A stretch of 64,000 nucleotides of DNA, from the NCBI RefSeq assembly GCF_024228675.1, contig NZ_CP100463.1, positions 186,001-250,000 on the forward strand. Reading direction: 5' to 3'. This DNA comes from Salinigranum marinum. Its GTDB lineage: Archaea > Halobacteriota > Halobacteria > Halobacteriales > Haloferacaceae. The notes beneath the pieces are model-generated. The model did no database searches, was not told where the DNA came from, and saw only the letters and a list, made by a program, of their open reading frames with translations. Of this stretch, positions 18,586 to 29,811 are shown one piece after another (position 1 is the stretch's first letter; every line of letters begins with the position of its first letter). Made by a program: the position numbers and the translations under genes.

Positions 18586-19398
18586 ATGGCAGACCAACTG
18601 GCCGGGCAAGCTGCCATCGTCACCGGTGCGAGTTCAGGATTCGGTCGCCAAATCGCCCTCTCCTTTGCGGAGGAGGGTGCCAGCGTTGTCTGTGCGGACA
18701 TCCGTGAAACCCCGCGAGAGGGTGGCTACGAGGAGCATCCCGATCTTTCGACACCCGAAGTAATCGAGGACAACGGAGGTGACGCGACCTTCGTCGAGTG
18801 CGACGTCACCAATGCTGATTCCGTGGCTGCAGCGGTCGAGGAGTGCGTTGAGGCGTACTCACGGTTGGACATCATGATGAACAATGCTGGGATTTACCCT
18901 CCGAACGGGCGGCTACACGAACGTCCCGACGAGGATTTAGAGAAGGCCCACGCTGTGAACGTCAAGGGAGTCTGGAACGGATCGAAACAGGCCGTTCTGC
19001 AGTTCTTGGAACAGGGTGACGGTGGAAACATCATTAATCTCGTCTCAACAGCCGGACTTCACGGCTGGCAGAATCAGCTTGCGTACAACGCTTCGAAGGG
19101 CGCTGCGAAGCAGATAACCGAGACGCTGGCGACCGACTACGGTCCTGACGGTATCAGAGCGAACGCGATCTGTCCGGGGTTTGCACCGACCGCACTCACC
19201 TCGGAACTCTACGAGATTGAGGAGTTCAAACAACACGTCATCGAGACGACTCCGTACGGGGATCGGTGGGTCAGTCCGAACGACGTCGCCAACCTAGCCG
19301 TCTTCCTGGCCTCCGACAACTCCGGATTCATTACTGGGCAGTGCCACGTCGTCGACGGCGGACACTCACTCGTTTACGCCCACACAAAGGACCTGTAA
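18586..19398 (+). CDS. Short-chain dehydrogenase/reductase
   Basis: 270 residues of the classical SDR type. The nucleotide motif TGASSGFG sits at residues 13-20, CADIR ends the second strand, NNAGIYPP is the fourth strand motif, and the catalytic Ser in LVSTAGLHGW with Tyr-x-x-x-Lys in YNASK complete the active site. The C-terminus FITGQCHVVDGGHSL is standard. A GGAGG ribosome site overlaps the end of the hydrolase gene, 2 bp away, so both are made together. An oxidoreductase acting on a hydroxyl or keto group linked to the hydrolase product is a reasonable inference; the substrate is unknown. Confidence 0.88.
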   Translation: MADQLAGQAAIVTGASSGFGRQIALSFAEEGASVVCADIRETPREGGYEEHPDLSTPEVIEDNGGDATFVECDVTNADSVAAAVEECVEAYSRLDIMMNNAGIYPPNGRLHERPDEDLEKAHAVNVKGVWNGSKQAVLQFLEQGDGGNIINLVSTAGLHGWQNQLAYNASKGAAKQITETLATDYGPDGIRANAICPGFAPTALTSELYEIEEFKQHVIETTPYGDRWVSPNDVANLAVFLASDNSGFITGQCHVVDGGHSLVYAHTKDL

Positions 19399-19434
19399 TC
19401 GATCCTACGAGGAAATATCACTCCGAATACAACA

Positions 19435-19557
19435 ATGGCAGACCAACTATCGGGCCAAACGGCCATCGTCACCGGTGCGAGTTCAGGCAACGGGCGAGCG
19501 ATCGCGAAAACCTTCGCCGATGAGGGTGCCGCGGTCGTTTGCGCGGATATTCGGTAG
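19435..19557 (+). pseudogene. Second SDR copy, cut after 40 residues
   Basis: Opens MADQLSGQTAIVTGASSGNG, nearly identical to the intact SDR just upstream, with CADIR before the break. The mobile repeat beginning at 19552 supplies the TAG stop (19555-19557) within its first bases. It was evidently a tandem paralogue; nothing beyond residue 40 remains. Confidence 0.85.
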
Positions 19558-19659
19558 TTCCCATCGTATCAATAATATCATATATTGTAGATGTGAACGA
19601 AGAAGAGTTTAATCGATAAAATCGAGAGACCTAGGGTCATTATGCCTATATTCATTTGT

Positions 19660-19679
19660 TACCGTAAATTGTACCGTAA
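19660..19679 (+). promoter_or_regulatory. Direct-repeat operator-like site before RHH gene
   Basis: TACCGTAA occurs at 19660-19667 and 19672-19679, 12 bp apart, 20 bp before the RHH start. Ribbon-helix-helix dimers commonly bind such half-site pairs, so autoregulation is plausible. Confidence 0.4.
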
Positions 19680-19699
19680 CACAGCTCATGTGAAGATGC

Positions 19700-19900
19700 A
19701 TGCCACCAGACGGATACACAACTGTCACGATCAGTGATGGGTTGGCTGAGAAACTCGTTCGGATCATGAACCGCCACAATCGGCCCAGCTACGCAGAAGC
19801 CATCAAGTATGCCGTCGATTCGACTCTCGTCCGTGAGGAAGATATCACGGTCAAAGAACTCGTTCAGTTCCTCGCTGAACGAGTCGACGAATTGGAATAA
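19700..19900 (+). CDS. Ribbon-helix-helix protein inside the MITE
   Basis: 66 residues: strand GYTTVTISDGLAEKLV, helices through RIMNRHNRPSYAEAIKYAVDSTL, then a C-terminal helix VKELVQFLAERVDELE. The turn RPSYAEAI matches the RHH fold used by CopG-like repressors. It is the only gene within the ISH3-ended repeat and may control its own expression through the TACCGTAA pair. Whether it affects transposition, copy number or host genes is unknown. Confidence 0.72.
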   Translation: MPPDGYTTVTISDGLAEKLVRIMNRHNRPSYAEAIKYAVDSTLVREEDITVKELVQFLAERVDELE

Positions 19901-20226
19901 CTACTTACAGTAACATTTACCATAACACTCGGAATGAATCATTGGCTAGTGGTTTTGGACTCCGACCGCAGCCGGTAATGATGATTTCCCAACTAGATGG
20001 GAACTACCGACAGTGTGAGCCTCGCGGGCAAGCCCGCCCGAGTCGGGGTTGCCCGTTCGCTTCCCCAACGCTTGTTTGGCTACACGTAGTGCTGTCTCAA
20101 CGAGTTCGAGTAGAGCGACGCCCATAATCGCCTTCTCGACCTCGTTTCCTCAAACTCCTTACGGAGCAATCCTGCTGCTGTCGTCCATTTTCAATAGAGC
20201 AGAAATCATGTGTCTTGAATCAATCG

Positions 20227-21966: not shown

Positions 21967-22086
21967 ACATTCGTCTTTAGTTAAGAAATCGCGTGACAGC
22001 GGCAGGATTTCTTCACTGTACAAGAAATAGCTGAGATTTCTTCTGATAAATATTCAACTTGAACCGAAATAAGACAATAAGCTTAC

Positions 22087-22102
22087 GGTGCACCCGGTGC
22101 AC
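22087..22102 (+). promoter_or_regulatory. GGTGCAC direct-repeat site before RHH gene
   Basis: GGTGCAC at 22087-22093 and 22096-22102; each contains the palindrome GTGCAC. It lies 25 bp before the RHH start. A single further copy is near 23392. Confidence 0.4.
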
Positions 22103-22126
22103 GCATTTCTAAGAGTGTCTAAAACT

Positions 22127-22330
22127 ATGAGCCGAACCAAAATGGGCGTCTCCATCCGGACTGAACTCGTCGATGAACTCGATACAGTTGTTGGTGAGTG
22201 CTCAGATCTCGCAGCAAGCCGCTCCGAGACCGTTGAAGCCATCCTCGTAGCATATTTCCAGAACGAGGAAGAGAGAATCAAACAGACACGAGAGGTGATT
22301 ATCCGCAACAGAAAACGCTCTAACTCGTAG
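22127..22330 (+). CDS. Ribbon-helix-helix protein in second mobile segment
   Basis: 67 residues beginning MSRTKMGVSIRTELVDEL, then GECSDLAASRSETVEAILVAYF and a basic tail IIRNRKRSNS. Strand-helix-helix order and the SRSETVEAIL turn fit the CopG/MetJ-like RHH fold. The start at 22127 is chosen because the reading from 22088 covers the operator-like repeat. Like the RHH gene at 19700 it is a passenger of an inverted-repeat-bounded segment. Function unknown; probably a DNA-binding repressor. Confidence 0.7.
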   Translation: MSRTKMGVSIRTELVDELDTVVGECSDLAASRSETVEAILVAYFQNEEERIKQTREVIIRNRKRSNS

Positions 22331-22355
22331 AGAAGTCCGTGCACTATAGTAACAG

Positions 22356-23346
22356 TCAAAAATAGCTGCTCACACTTGGGACGGAAATCTGGTCAAGTGC
22401 CTTGTCGATCGCTGCGTTGAGTTCGTTAAGAGAATCGAAGAATCGGTTGCCGAGAGCGTTTTTTAGCTGTCTCCAGCACTCTTCGACTGGATTCAGTTCA
22501 GGTGAATACGCTGGCAATCTCACGAGGGCGAGGTCGTCACGGGCCGCTAGGTCCGTGACGGCCGACGCCCGGAAGTATGGCGCACCGTCGAGGACGACAA
22601 TTAGATCTTCTTGGAATTCTTCACACAGTGCGAGGATGAAGTGCTTCGCGTGTTTGGCGGTGACGTACTCTTCGAATCGTGAAAAGAAGCGATTACCGTC
22701 CTCGGTGATCGCGCCGAGCAAGCACGTCCAGTCACGTTGTCCAGAAAGCTCAACCGACGGCCGCGTGCCGCGCGGAAACCACGCGGCTCAACTTGCACGG
22801 ATTTCTTGATTTGGTCGATACAGACTACCGTGGCGTCCATCTCTCGTCGCTTTTTTTGAGTTCTTCGTGAAACTCGTCGCGGTCTTCAGGCTCAGCTTCG
22901 GCGGCTGTTCGACGAGGCTTTTGATAACTCAATCCCGCTTCTTTCATCAACCGCCGACAACTGGGGATTGAGTACTCAACGCCGAACGTTTCTTCGAGAA
23001 ATTCGTCGAGAAGCGCCGGCGTCCACGCCGGCGCGTCGATTCCTGCTTCAGTGGGTGGTTGCTGAAGCGTCTGTTCCAATTACTTCTGTTGTTCTTCGGT
23101 AAGCTTACACGGTCTTCCTGACCGATGATCGTCCTGAACAGCCTGCACAAGCGGCTCTTGTTCGAGCCGCTTGAGCCAGCTGTAAATCGTCCGTCTCTGC
23201 ACACCGTACCACTCAGACAGCTCGGTTTGTGTGACACCGTTTTTGTACGCAATCGCTGCTGTCAGTCGCTGTGCCGGCTTGTTTCCCTCAACATTGTTGA
23301 GCGCGTGTTGAAGTTCCTCGACAGAAATCTCGTCGAGATGGTCCAT
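22356..23346 (-). pseudogene. IS630-family transposase, degraded
   Basis: The N-terminal helix-turn-helix is intact (NGVTQTELSEWYGVQRRTIYSWLKRLEQ from ATG 23346), then an in-frame TAA near 23080 interrupts TEEQQK and LEQTLQ. The second segment runs to KKSDERWTPR where the frame is lost, MDATVVCIDQIKKSVQVEPR lies in another frame, and a further shift leads to the end: LDGAPYFRA with a catalytic Asp and PAYSPELNPVEECW with the catalytic Glu. At least one stop and two frameshifts make it inactive. Confidence 0.8.
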
Positions 23347-23590
23347 AGTTAACCACTAATACTTGGGTAGAAAGTTCTAACGCCTAATATAGGTGCACGC
23401 ACTTCTTAGAGCGTTATTCGAAGTCACAATCCAACTGGATCAATATTGTCTCCATGTATCATGAATAGAAGTCGCCTTTTCGCTATTCAGTCCCTACGCT
23501 GTAATGCGGTTTTGCTCTTAACTAAAGACGAATGTGGCTGTTGGTTAACACCGTCTGAGAAATCGAGTATCGTCTCATCGAACTCTGACG

Positions 23591-25648
23591 TTACGCATCA
23601 TCAGTCGGGACGAACTCAGACAACTCGGTGTCTCGAGTTCCGCTTAGCCTTTGTCTGATGTCCGTCCGGTCCCATCCGAGGGGCGAGAGAACACTCTCGA
23701 CAGCTCGAACGAGCTGCGTTTCATAGTACGACGCGTCGTATGTCTCAATACATTCGTGCCGGAGAGCGACTCGATCCCGAGACGACTTCCCGTCATCGAC
23801 AACCACGTACTCGATATCCTGTCCCGGATGGACCGTGAGACCTCGGTCACGGGCTCGCTCGAGCGCCGCGACGTCCTGCGTGTACTGTGTGTATCCCTCG
23901 ATCGGTTTCGAGACACGGTTCCGTTCGACGAGCCGATCCACCGTCACCGCTCCAGCGCGAAGCTTCGAAACAGCCCGCCTCAGACACCCAATAACGGCCT
24001 CTGGCGACCGGGTCTCGTCGAACCGCTTCAGGCACTCCCGCTGGACGTCCGCGACAAACGCCGGTGTCGACCGTTGTCGCCACTCTATACCCCGTACCTT
24101 GAACTCGTCTTCTTCAGCGACTTTGCCGAAGTACTTCGTCAATGCACCAGCGTCACTCTCTCGCTGCGGCACGAACGCCACCCACTCGTATCGTGCTTCG
24201 TACTCGAGCCGAATCTCGACCGTCTCCGTGATTTCTTTCGCGAGGTCCTTGAGATTAACTCGCCTATCATCCTCGACATCGGGATCGGGCGTCACCCAGA
24301 TCGAATCGACAATGCCGTGAACGACACGCCACCCACCAGCCTCCAACCGTTGTTTCGCGGTCAACAGAATATCCCGAGCGAACGCATTGATCGCCTCGTG
24401 ACACTCGATCCGACCGAACTTCGCGTTACTGAACCCTTGATACCCGAAACAGGCGACGAGAATCCATTTCAACGCGCTCGACCGCCCGTTGAGTGCTTCG
24501 AGACGTTCTTGATCGGGCGTCTCCCGCCGCTGTTCGCGACGGATTTCGGCTTTGATCTCGTCGCGAGCATCGATGATCGGTTGGAGCACGTCGACGAGGT
24601 ACCCACGTTCGTCACAGATGGCGTACCCCAAGCCAGGCACGTCTTCACGACAGCGGTGACACTCACACCGTATCACGTCCGGTGACACGTTTCGCGTGCA
24701 GATGATGTTCGGATACAGACTCGAAAAGTCGAGTTCGTGGACGTCTTCGTGGAGACCAACCTCGGGCGCGAAAATGAAGCCACCTCGATCGGCGCCGTGG
24801 AGCGTCCGCATCGGTTTGTAGAACTCGTGCCGCCAGGAATTCCACGGCACCAACACATCTCTGTCGTGAGCTTCGCAGATCTGGATGGCCGTTAGTACGT
24901 TCCCAATTGACGCCCAGGCGAGCTCTTGGACCGGCTTTTTCGACCGCGACACGAGATCGAGGACGCCATCGAGGTTCGTCTCCCCGTAGAAGAACGTGTT
25001 CGACTCGTCGATGATCGCCCGACCGGGCACGTTGTACCGCGCCGGTGAGTGACCGACGCGATCATAACTCGAGTACGTTGACTGACTCGCGAGCTGCTGG
25101 TGGTCCACGTCTGGCCACCGACTCAACGAGAAGTCGTCGACGCCGACGGCCGTCGCCATCTCGGACAGCGTCGGGACGATCTCGCTCGTTGAGCAGACCA
25201 GGACGTCCGGATCGTGTGCGTCGAGCGCTGCCTGCACGGCGGTCAAGAGCTCCGAGGGCGAGCCAATGACGGTGTCGCCGGCGACGGACAGTTCCTCGTA
25301 GAGGTCGTTGCTCGTTTCGGTCACCGGGACGCTAAGCCGGAGCGTCGCCAGATCGATCGCCGGCGTCGGATCGACGCCAGTCTCCAGACAGTACCGGAAC
25401 TCCCGCGAAAAGTCGACGTTGAAGCAGGCGAGATCCCCGACTGGATAGTCCGACAGCTGGCGCGCCTGCTGGGCGAGTGGGGTGACGCGGTCGATGTGGC
25501 GGATGTCGACGGCCAGGACTGGTTCCTCGTCTCGTCGAAAACCGGGCCGTCGCGCAACCGTCTCGCTTGCGACGACATCTGGGTGTTGGTCGTACGCCGA
25601 CTGGAGTGTCGTGAGGTCGAGGTCGGCGTCGGGGTCGCGAGGGGCCAC
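23591..25648 (-). pseudogene. Family B DNA polymerase, plasmid type, N-terminus truncated
   Basis: 685 residues from an internal GTG. Polymerase motif A is DFSSLYPNI (residues 307-315); motif B is degenerate, KWILVACFGYQGFSNAKFG (from 394), where FGYQ replaces the usual N..YG; motif C is HGIVDSIWV (444-452), in which the first aspartate of YxDTDS is replaced, leaving one Asp. The frame is open upstream as VVDYTSRFYVAPRD to a TAG near 25690, so about 35 native residues are missing where the TnpB-type end abuts. The three exonuclease motifs are not evident. It resembles the family B polymerases of haloarchaeal plasmids and proviruses. The remaining frame is fully open and might still be translated. 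Confidence 0.7.
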
Positions 25649-27925: not shown

Positions 27926-28244
27926 ATTCCCGATTTGGCAGACTGAGATGCTTGACGAAGGCTCCGGAAACCGATCTTCCGATCTGACCCGTGGGGTCCG
28001 ACTCAAATGTATGCAGCATCCTCGATGTATGCACCCCTTCGCTTCCAGTCGAGCGGTCTGGTGCATAGAATCGGGGCTGGTATCAGATGTAATCGACGGG
28101 ACCGCGCCCTGGGCGTGGGCCAGGTATATGAAGAATCGATGTTCAGCCAGCTCAGAACGACGCGCTCGCACCCCTGGTGCATACCTTCATCCATATGACC
28201 AAGCGAACGAGTCTGAAACTCACTGACGACCGGCAGCTACTGTC
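27926..28244. other. Intergenic with repeated GTATGCA words
   Basis: No gene. GTATGCAGC, GTATGCACC, GGTGCATAG and GGTGCATAC occur between about 28006 and 28184, two in each orientation; possibly binding sites of a plasmid protein, possibly chance. Confidence 0.4.
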
Positions 28245-29670
28245 GGTAGTTCCCATCACGTCAGCTGATAGCTACGACTGTCGTGGTTAGATTCTCAGGA
28301 AGCGTCTGGATGGGTGTTGATGAAGTGTTTATACCATCCAGACACTGTTCTTACGGCCTCTGACCTTGAAATCTTAGCGGAAGGCCTCCTCGCAGAGCTA
28401 CCGATACCCGGAGTCGAAGGCTGCGGCTTCGACTCCGGGATTATCCGACGGACGCTCCTCCAAGCAGCTGTTGACCAGACCTCGATCAAGGCGGTCACCG
28501 ACAGCACTCGTGGAACCTACTCCGACGACTACACGCTTGCTCAGCTTCACACCATCCCACCTGAAGAACTCGAAGCCACCGTCAACCTCCTCCTCAGACA
28601 ACAGGCGACGATGATCCTCGGCCCCGGCCCGAGGATCATCTGTCTTGACTTCGTCGACGTCCACTACCACGGCTGTCCACACCACTCTCCCGGTGAACTC
28701 TGTCACACGACGCCCCGCGATGGCACCTCACAGTGCCATCGCTACCTCGCTGGATTCGTCCTCTGTCGGGCGAAACCACTCGTCGTCGCCGTCACTGCTG
28801 TTCGTGGAGACGAACCAATAAGCGACGCGGTCGAGCGACTGCTCGACCACGTCGCGGCACTTCCCTTCGATGTCGCCAGTCTCCTCTGTGACCGCGGGTT
28901 CTACAACGGGGCGTGCATCCAGCGGTTGCGTGAGACTGCTCCGGTCGTTCTCCCGGTCATCCGACGCGGCCAACGGATGGCCGAGAAACTAGAGACGTCG
29001 ATCTCCTACTGGACGGAGTACACAATGTACGAGGGAAGCGAGCGGGAACTGCGCTTCCCGCTCGCTGTCTGTGTCTCCTACCGACAGGGCAAGCGGGGGA
29101 AGCACGGACTGCTTGTTCGTGCCTACATGGCGTGCGATCTGGCTGATCGCACGCCGAAGGAGGTTGAGGCTCTCTACCGGAAACGATCAGCCATCGAGAC
29201 AGCCTTTCGAACCATGCGCGAAGCGCGTGCACGCACAACCACGACCGACCCGGTCGTTCGGTTGGTGTTCGTGCTGGTGAGTTTCCTGTTGCGGAATCTG
29301 TGGCTGATCGTTCGCTGGGGCGTGCTCGCCACGCCGCGGCGCGGCGGGCGAGCACTACCCGTGTGGTTCCGCTTCGAGGTATTCCGAGCGTGGATCAACC
29401 ACACGCTCGACGAACTGCTACACCGGAAGTGGGAAGCACCGACCAACGGTGTGGGGATTCCCGCGACGTATGGTCAGCTGGACGCGGGCTGACCGAGCCC
29501 GCGTCCAGCGAGTGCCCCTGAAGAGCAGTTGCTAGGCATCGCCATCACATATTCGGCGCTCTCACTGACGTGAGACCGCCTTTCGCTGGCTATTGTCTCC
29601 GTACCGAGATCGAACTTGTCGCTTCCGCCGTGGAAAATCAAGTCAGCGTGTAGAACCGATGGGAACTACC
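28245..29670 (+). mobile_element. ISH3-family insertion sequence, apparently complete
   Basis: 1426 bp with 13-bp exact terminal inverted repeats GGTAGTTCCCATC (28245-28257) and GATGGGAACTACC (29658-29670), one intact transposase. No direct repeat at the flanks (CTGTC versus GAATT), so its target duplication was lost or it sits at a recombination joint. Confidence 0.85.
28320..29492 (+). CDS. ISH3-family transposase
   Basis: 390 residues, the family's usual length. The DDE triad is visible: CLDFVDVHYHG, LCDRGFYNGACIQRL, and ALYRKRSAIETAFRTMRE with the Glu, followed by ARTTTTDPVVRLVFVLVSFLLRNLW and TPRRGGRALP, all typical ISH3 blocks. ATG 28320 is used. The gene is open throughout and the element has both ends, so it may be active and may mobilise the 458-bp repeat at 19552-20009, which has the same ends. 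Confidence 0.88.
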   Translation: MKCLYHPDTVLTASDLEILAEGLLAELPIPGVEGCGFDSGIIRRTLLQAAVDQTSIKAVTDSTRGTYSDDYTLAQLHTIPPEELEATVNLLLRQQATMILGPGPRIICLDFVDVHYHGCPHHSPGELCHTTPRDGTSQCHRYLAGFVLCRAKPLVVAVTAVRGDEPISDAVERLLDHVAALPFDVASLLCDRGFYNGACIQRLRETAPVVLPVIRRGQRMAEKLETSISYWTEYTMYEGSERELRFPLAVCVSYRQGKRGKHGLLVRAYMACDLADRTPKEVEALYRKRSAIETAFRTMREARARTTTTDPVVRLVFVLVSFLLRNLWLIVRWGVLATPRRGGRALPVWFRFEVFRAWINHTLDELLHRKWEAPTNGVGIPATYGQLDAG

Positions 29671-29811
29671 GAATTTATAAATACTACAAAGGTAAGTCTG
29701 TTTGTCTGCGACTGGACGTTGGTGAGTTTAGTCTGTACGACATCGAAAGCTTCGTCTTTGGCCTTCTCTCACGACGCTAAAGTTCCGCGATTATCTGCCT
29801 GGAGCGCCGAG

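Follow-up and report, generated by a model that had tools for sequence, protein, structure and literature searches.

Results

The locus and the identity of the element

The window, i.e., the whole stretch of 64,000 nucleotides of Salinigranum marinum that was analysed, carries at 21967–23535 a small ribbon-helix-helix (RHH) gene of the CopG type enclosed by terminal inverted repeats, together with an inner insertion of the IS630 family whose transposase gene is broken into three (Table 1). A family B DNA polymerase gene (23591–25648, 685 codons, Pfam DNA_pol_B, E 4.9e-24) lies next to this segment, with its 3′ end 55 bp from the right end.

Table 1. Features of the outer element, its nested insertion and the sibling element, in window coordinates
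Feature	Position	Strand	Remarks
Sibling mini-element, ends TCGGTAGTTCCCATC	19551–20010	+	Different RHH-like gene at 19700–19900; paired TTACNGTAA-type sites on both sides
Left terminal inverted repeat	21967–21986	+	20 bp, 100% complementary to right end
Upstream 17-bp palindrome GGTGCAC-CCG-GTGCACG, probable RHH operator	22087–22103	.	24–40 nt before ATG; position and bases kept across copies
Small RHH (CopG-type) gene	22127–22330	+	67 codons plus stop; homolog of WP_000124630.1
Left half of downstream palindrome (CGTGCAC) and first TA	22338–22346	.	Uninterrupted in L030 (G039:C10) and ISH2
IS630-family insertion, including both TA copies	22345–23391	-	Transposase broken into three ORFs
IS630 transposase fragment, DDE_3	22356–22721	-	Pfam PF13358, E 7.3e-28
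IS630 transposase fragment, winged-helix HTH_33	22825–23079	-	Pfam PF13592, E 1.7e-19
IS630 transposase fragment, N-terminal HTH	23080–23346	-	Pfam PF13551, E 8.2e-11
Second TA and right half of downstream palindrome (GGTGCACG)	23390–23399	.	From the sequence
Right terminal inverted repeat	23516–23535	-	Complementary to left end

The original prediction had described exact inverted ends of 19 bp; they are indeed exact, but 20 bp long. The element proper starts with CATTCG at 21968, inside the left terminal inverted repeat, and CATTCGTCTTTAGTTAAG stands at both of its tips, as it does in L246, L247 and the ISH2 copy L123. Judged by their sequence, these inverted ends, which begin with CAT, belong to haloarchaeal ISH8-type (IS4-family) elements, and the same ends were found on ISH8-type elements and MITEs of relatives. 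The terminal 20-bp word has no other match within the window at up to three mismatches. The end word CATTCGTCTTTAGTTAAGA (at most one mismatch) occurs in 12 of the 99 genomes searched, the window's own counted, and there are copies elsewhere that combine these ends with the same kind of RHH gene and target duplications of 10–11 bp; uniqueness of the ends, named beforehand as grounds for abandoning the prediction, is thus disproved. A chance inverted repeat around unrelated pieces would be in keeping with the lack of a target-site duplication in the window copy, whose flanks, CCTGGAGA and TGGCTGTT, differ, but 100 shuffles gave no match to the end word, and in other genomes copies with identical limits and duplicated flanks occur, which refutes this explanation and leaves it a negligible probability.

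Without the IS630 insertion and one TA, the element measures 522 bp, and ISH2 of Halobacterium salinarum 521 bp. It is identical to the ISH2 copies of pNRC200 at 436 of 521 positions (83.7%), and at 87.8% over its left 378 bp. The two pNRC200 stretches listed as ISH2 in the available part of PMC10264941 (70,690–71,220 and 308,738–309,268) both encode WP_000124630.1, and both elements are 521 bp long with duplicated flanks; the same part of that paper describes ISH2 as a MITE whose termini are related to those of ISH8 and which the ISH8 transposase mobilises in trans. The interior of the window element is related to that of ISH2, with the expected length of about 521 bp, and the only transposase remnants within 21967–23535 are those of IS630, none belonging to the outer element. 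Since ends, length, interior and gene are all common to ISH2, 21967–23535 can be assigned as one mobile element, an ISH2-family MITE and a new copy of a known element. Two points thereby go beyond the original prediction: the element is the known ISH2, and a GTGCAC pair stands on either side of the gene.

The window copy shares both palindromes with ISH2 and differs from it in being split by IS630 within the downstream one and in lacking a target duplication, which is also absent from one of three ISH2 copies (L123). A duplication of 10–11 bp is present in L246, L247, L030, L031 and L096 and absent from L123 and from L032, a copy with ends of class A (see below); being a mark of insertion that some copies have lost, it was not counted as defining ISH2. 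The RHH-bearing copies measure 521–522 bp. No empty insertion site was found in relatives, the left flank being weakly matched in seven of 59 other genomes, and no viral source in 50,697 phage records (0 matches).

The nested IS630-family insertion

The inner insertion has both a DDE_3-type transposase and a TA target duplication (22345–22346 and 23390–23391), the marks of the IS630 family, and the degraded transposase that had been predicted was recovered as three minus-strand ORFs with HTH, HTH_33 and DDE_3 domains. Used as a query, the IS630 part matched 16 of 60 genomes, the window's own counted, including two copies at 89% identity on contig C1 of the same genome. Most near-full-length matches begin at query position 4–6 and finish at 1052–1056, and it is by these alignment limits that the bounds were set at 22345–23391, with a TA at each end.

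The insertion interrupts a palindrome, 22339–22344 and 23393–23398 being the two halves of a single GTGCAC palindrome with IS630 between them; in relatives without IS630, the site reads GTGCAC-N3-GTGCAC. A direct copy of the upstream region had been noted on the far side and was found again (22096–22118 against 23392–23414, 23 nt, 87%, with the word GGTGCACGCA repeated); with IS630 in mid-palindrome, this copy includes the right half of the downstream site of the element. Directed insertion of IS630 into the operator was considered and rejected, as the central TA of CTAG suffices and there is one clear case only. In L137 and L138, two copies of one stretch, an IS630-type ORF lies near the site, outside it.

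The RHH protein is constrained across the family

The protein encoded by the window element, whose start codon was picked from relatives, is 84% identical to that of the ISH2 copy L123, and in a protein search of plasmids nine Halobacterium salinarum records proved to carry the gene, at 81% identity. WP_000124630.1 is annotated in the records as 'hypothetical protein', and four plasmid relatives as 'ribbon-helix-helix protein, CopG family'. At E 0.1 neither Pfam nor NCBIfam has a model that matches the protein of the window element, and the assignment of this protein as RHH follows from its relatives, ten of 14 family members matching Pfam RHH_1 (best E 8.1e-6). An AlphaFold model of only fair quality (pLDDT 76.5, pTM 0.48) has strands at residues 3–5 and 8–10 and helices at 12–24, 32–43 and 47–66, a modelled order that might fit an RHH protein with an extra helix. 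Nothing significant was returned by Foldseek, with CopG itself at E 3.8, or by a profile search of solved structures, with the antitoxin EndoAI on top at E 0.27.

Nei-Gojobori dN/dS (ratio of means, over pairs that are non-independent) is 0.27 in class A (54 pairs, 11 sequences), 0.14 in class B (883 pairs, 44 sequences), 0.09 in class C (9 pairs, 5 sequences) and 0.08 in class D (1 pair). These low ratios clearly indicate that the RHH gene is in use and its protein constrained across the family. Protein of the multicopy ISH2 has been detected in a proteomic data set, as stated in the available part of PMC10134880. The window protein has a mean dN to the other class A proteins of 0.120, with most others at 0.050–0.093 and L096 at 0.143, and deviates from them at A29, T35 and V41, so that its RHH sequence may be starting to drift. 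Outer ends and RHH frame are intact in the window copy, but this possible drift, a single whole operator and the missing target duplication suggest that it is probably a relic.

Paired palindromes flank the gene

In ISH2, the RHH gene lies between two GTGCAC-N3-GTGCAC palindromes; the upstream one corresponds in the window element to the GGTGCAC pair that had been predicted in front of the gene, and that is confirmed here (Table 1). Among eight class A copies (six distinct sequences, the three pNRC200 ISH2 copies being identical), each site is invariant at 12 of 15 positions and varies in the 3-nt spacer only, the terminal inverted repeats are 95% and 100% invariant, the arms 43% and 38%, and the coding sequence 74%. 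Across 81 distinct relatives, a 7-3-7 palindrome (at least five of seven pairs) was found upstream at −33 to −41 in 57 of 67 full-length cases, against 97 of 1340 upstream shuffles, downstream at +3 to +16 after the stop in 64 of 67, and on both sides in 54, counts that omit 13 of the 81 loci with a protein outside 64–68 aa and one more per side with too short a flank, and that take the best-scoring palindrome, so that a true site is missed if another scores higher (L096).

The half-site sequence follows residue 5 of the protein. Where this residue is K, 117 sites were called as GTGCAC, none as TTGCAG and 13 as other; where it is E, 12 were called as TTGCAG, none as GTGCAC and three as other; R or S gave two GTGCAC calls and three other. 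The E5 rows with assigned ends all belong to class C (L243 has none assigned), and the switch between K and E therefore amounts to about one event. Most likely, the predicted RHH protein binds both sites and represses its own gene.

A second RHH-like family with equally spaced sites

The original prediction had counted two independent cases of RHH genes in mobile segments, and the sibling element (Table 1) bears this out, as it too has transposon-type ends. Its 15-bp ends TCGGTAGTTCCCATC also bound a 1430-bp element in the same window (28243–29672) with a 392-codon DDE transposase ORF (28314–29492, Pfam DDE_Tnp_1, E 1.1e-8), and further pairs of these ends lie 1430 bp apart on C2 (two) and 1432 bp apart on C1 (one). 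The sibling interrupts the second copy of a short-chain dehydrogenase-like gene (window 18586–19557): 19435–19553 repeats the start of 18586–19398 (119 nt, 75%) and then enters the sibling element.

Proteins of this second family, which includes that of the sibling, have weak Pfam matches only, below the cut-off, and the RHH label is a reading of their sequence. TTACNGTAA-type words stand on both sides of the gene in 16 of 20 loci, with 173 of 4000 upstream shuffles having one. In the 15 loci with pairs on both sides, the spacing is equal in 14 (12/12 in nine, 11/11 in two and 21/21 in three, the exception being 10/11), an agreement difficult to account for if the two sites are not read by one and the same protein.

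An alternative is that the palindromes act as RNA hairpins (terminators or stabilisers) or as structural DNA rather than as protein sites. Both sites are palindromic, and in ISH2 the downstream one can be prolonged into a hairpin whose arms measure 14 bp. However, a half-site sequence common to both sides goes beyond mere complementarity, the upstream site is conserved too, the half-site co-varies with residue 5, and in the second family the spacing shifts jointly on both sides, to values (11, 12, 21) that suit DNA faces over RNA stems. Hairpins are thus an unlikely explanation, and binding of both sites by the RHH protein is preferred.

The module occurs within five classes of ends

A protein search of 392 genomes of the order matched 39, the window's own counted, with 11 copies in G214, and a further scan, covering a collection of 84,980 species, yielded 70 loci, every title being haloarchaeal. 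Identical copies were merged by the gene plus 60 bp on each side, reducing 143 loci to 81, among which 51 have both ends of one class, 20 have one end and 10 none. The module, site–RHH gene–site, is found within five classes of ends (34 of these 51 loci in B, nine in A, four in C, three in D and one in E). Class A is the ISH2 type and class D another ISH8-like type, whereas class B has partner elements of 1063–1069 bp with a DDE transposase and is termed ISH11-like by the lengths in the available part of PMC10264941, not by sequence. For classes C and E no partner element was identified, E being one locus without duplication; target duplications are present in A, B, C and D. In a tree of 66–67 residues with several weak nodes, A, C and D form clades and B takes in one row without ends; as the classes are mostly clades, swaps of ends appear to have been few.

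Some loci with related ends have other contents. L115 (G068:C1:589984–591769) has class C ends 1786 bp apart, enclosing a class C RHH gene whose C-terminus is altered and a TnpB-type ORF of 436 codons (Pfam OrfB_IS605, Cas12f1-like_TNB), apparently a nested insertion. L143 (G219:C13) is a short MITE with ISH11 ends that contains a single GTGCAC-N3-GTGCAC site and lacks an RHH gene; it may have arisen by deletion from a class B element. L118 (G122:C1:96729–100127) combines ISH11-like ends and a 9-bp duplication (TCACGGAGT) with a 1039-codon PAS/GAF histidine kinase gene (Pfam PAS, GAF, HisKA, HATPase_c), no transposase ORF being seen in this large cassette-like element, and L119 (G119:C15:6049–6745) has ISH11-like ends, a 9-bp duplication (TCCGCGGCC) and a 173-codon ORF without Pfam match.

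As a further sign that the RHH protein reads the palindromes, the exact site is common in RHH-bearing genomes. The window's genome has four exact GTGCAC-N3-GTGCAC sites, all within its three RHH elements; 13 RHH-bearing genomes have 82 against three in a reversed control (one strand), and five other genomes (G014 and G016, without RHH match, and G001–G003) two against two. Twenty site stretches without a listed RHH gene were opened, and 18 were judged to lie in or beside a mini-element or IS sequence, with L141 and L142 left unassigned. Genomes G054 and G008, which also carry RHH elements, have gene-free mini-elements with other ends and one palindrome inside (L124–L129, GTGCAC-N3-GTGCAC, six of seven opened, and L130–L136, seven copies opened, respectively). 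That the RHH gene is cargo retained for regulating host genes would accord with the purifying selection on the protein and with the several copies per genome in some hosts, but this distribution of sites, in the window's genome, across the 13 RHH-bearing genomes and in 18 of the 20 gene-less stretches, makes it quite improbable.

Partner transposases and mobility

The window's genome has three open ISH8-type transposase frames, 89% identical to that of a relative, in elements that end in CATTCGTCTTTAGTTAGAC / CATCCGTCTTTAGTTAGGA. A second type (54%) is represented by four full-length frames, of which three were read, with ends CATCCGTGTTCGGTTAAGA/CATCGGTGTTCGGTTAAGC. These second-type ends match those of L002, another RHH element of this genome (496 bp, 10-bp duplication ATCTCCGACC). 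Transposase-bearing elements with the end word measure 1403 bp between outer bases in L006, L018 and L021, the other end differing by 2.

Gene-free ISH8-type MITEs of 199–224 bp with duplicated flanks (L005, L007, L010, L025) contain no site at up to two mismatches, and both the RHH gene and the sites are therefore dispensable for mobility. At the same threshold no site was found in L006, L018, L021 and L264–L269, with one weak two-mismatch match inside L026, nor was one found by pattern in six full ISH11-like copies (L111, L112, L113, L116, L120 and one in L114). Apart from the match in L026, the partner elements examined are thus without sites, and repression of their transposase genes by the RHH protein through these sites is unlikely.

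Discussion

The reading that we consider probable is that of a 522-bp ISH2-family MITE, moved in trans by ISH8-type transposases, that carries an RHH autorepressor bound at two palindromes and was later split by IS630. For the window copy we infer mobilisation in trans, DNA binding, autorepression and bridging as follows. ISH8-type transposases would move the transposase-less element in trans, and the autorepressor would occupy both 17-bp palindromes as a higher-order RHH complex, its binding at the upstream site shutting the gene's own promoter and the downstream site allowing the element body to be bridged or closed. Selection would retain the RHH protein for its service to the element rather than to the host. 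Later an IS630-family element inserted at the TA in the middle of the downstream palindrome, separating its two halves.

Mobile insertion cassettes such as MIC231 of Bacillus cereus consist of IS ends around a non-transposase gene and are moved in trans. The window element likewise has IS ends around a non-transposase gene, and differs from these cassettes in its cargo, a predicted DNA-binding protein that has probable sites of its own on both sides and is found with several kinds of ends.

A role of the RHH protein in trans-mobilisation is plausible. More specifically, and rather tentatively, it could be a transposition accessory factor that acts at both subterminal sites and holds the ends together or recruits the transposase, so that the MITE competes better. 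In classes A, B, C and E, the left and right sites are set in from their tips by similar distances (commonest values, left/right, 127.5/143.5, 68.5/82.5, 74.5/75.5 and 78.5/80.5 bp, respectively) and are separated by a near-fixed centre-to-centre distance (250–251 bp in A, 253–255 bp in B, C and E), the module is kept among MITEs with differing ends, and sites without the gene occur in multicopy mini-elements. The fixed distance may, however, reflect gene length alone, and in class D the depths are less equal (113.5/140.5) and the centres 242–243 bp apart. Gene-free, site-free ISH8-type MITEs also move, and the full ISH8-like and ISH11-like elements examined have no site, save the weak match in L026. 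A precedent is MobC of plasmid RA3, an element-encoded member of the RHH superfamily with a palindromic operator at its promoter, which autoregulates and stimulates transfer; yet it has 176 aa and serves conjugation, and its stimulation is independent of binding near oriT (all from the available part of PMC4175270), whereas for the ISH2 protein a part in transposition is a proposal.

The available parts of the literature place the window element among known kinds. ISH2 causes many strain-specific insertions among laboratory Halobacterium strains (PMC10264941) and is described as a MITE with an expressed ORF, not named as RHH in the parts covered (PMC10264941, PMC3119063, PMC10134880). MITEHsal2 of H. 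salinarum, given as 413 and 411 bp with duplications of 8 and 6 bp (PMC10264941, Table A2, seen in part), fits class B in length (405 bp) and, as matched by length only, would be a bearer of the same RHH/palindrome module; MITEHsal2 and class B differ from the window element in their ends, GAGSGTGTCATAGAA, and in their partner elements. Among the matches listed in a literature search, taken by title and start of abstract and with most subscription journals and ISfinder outside its scope, no paper was found on the RHH nature of the ISH2 protein or on the paired sites. The window element is thus known in kind, and the flanked-RHH architecture, the five classes of ends and the parallel in a second family are not described in the literature covered.

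A wider possibility, put forward with reserve, is that haloarchaeal MITEs of several IS families share a self-encoded accessory system, an RHH gene between its own paired operators, which would have arisen or been recruited on two or more occasions, given two RHH families that differ in their operators, and would act in trans on gene-free mini-elements that carry the operator only. If so, a layer of transposition control would be carried by the parasites of transposons and not by the transposons themselves. For ISH2, recognising its product as a probable RHH protein encoded between two operators provides a testable function and suggests a reason for a MITE to keep a gene under selection. Should the protein steer transposition, such MITEs would have a control of their own instead of riding passively on a foreign transposase.
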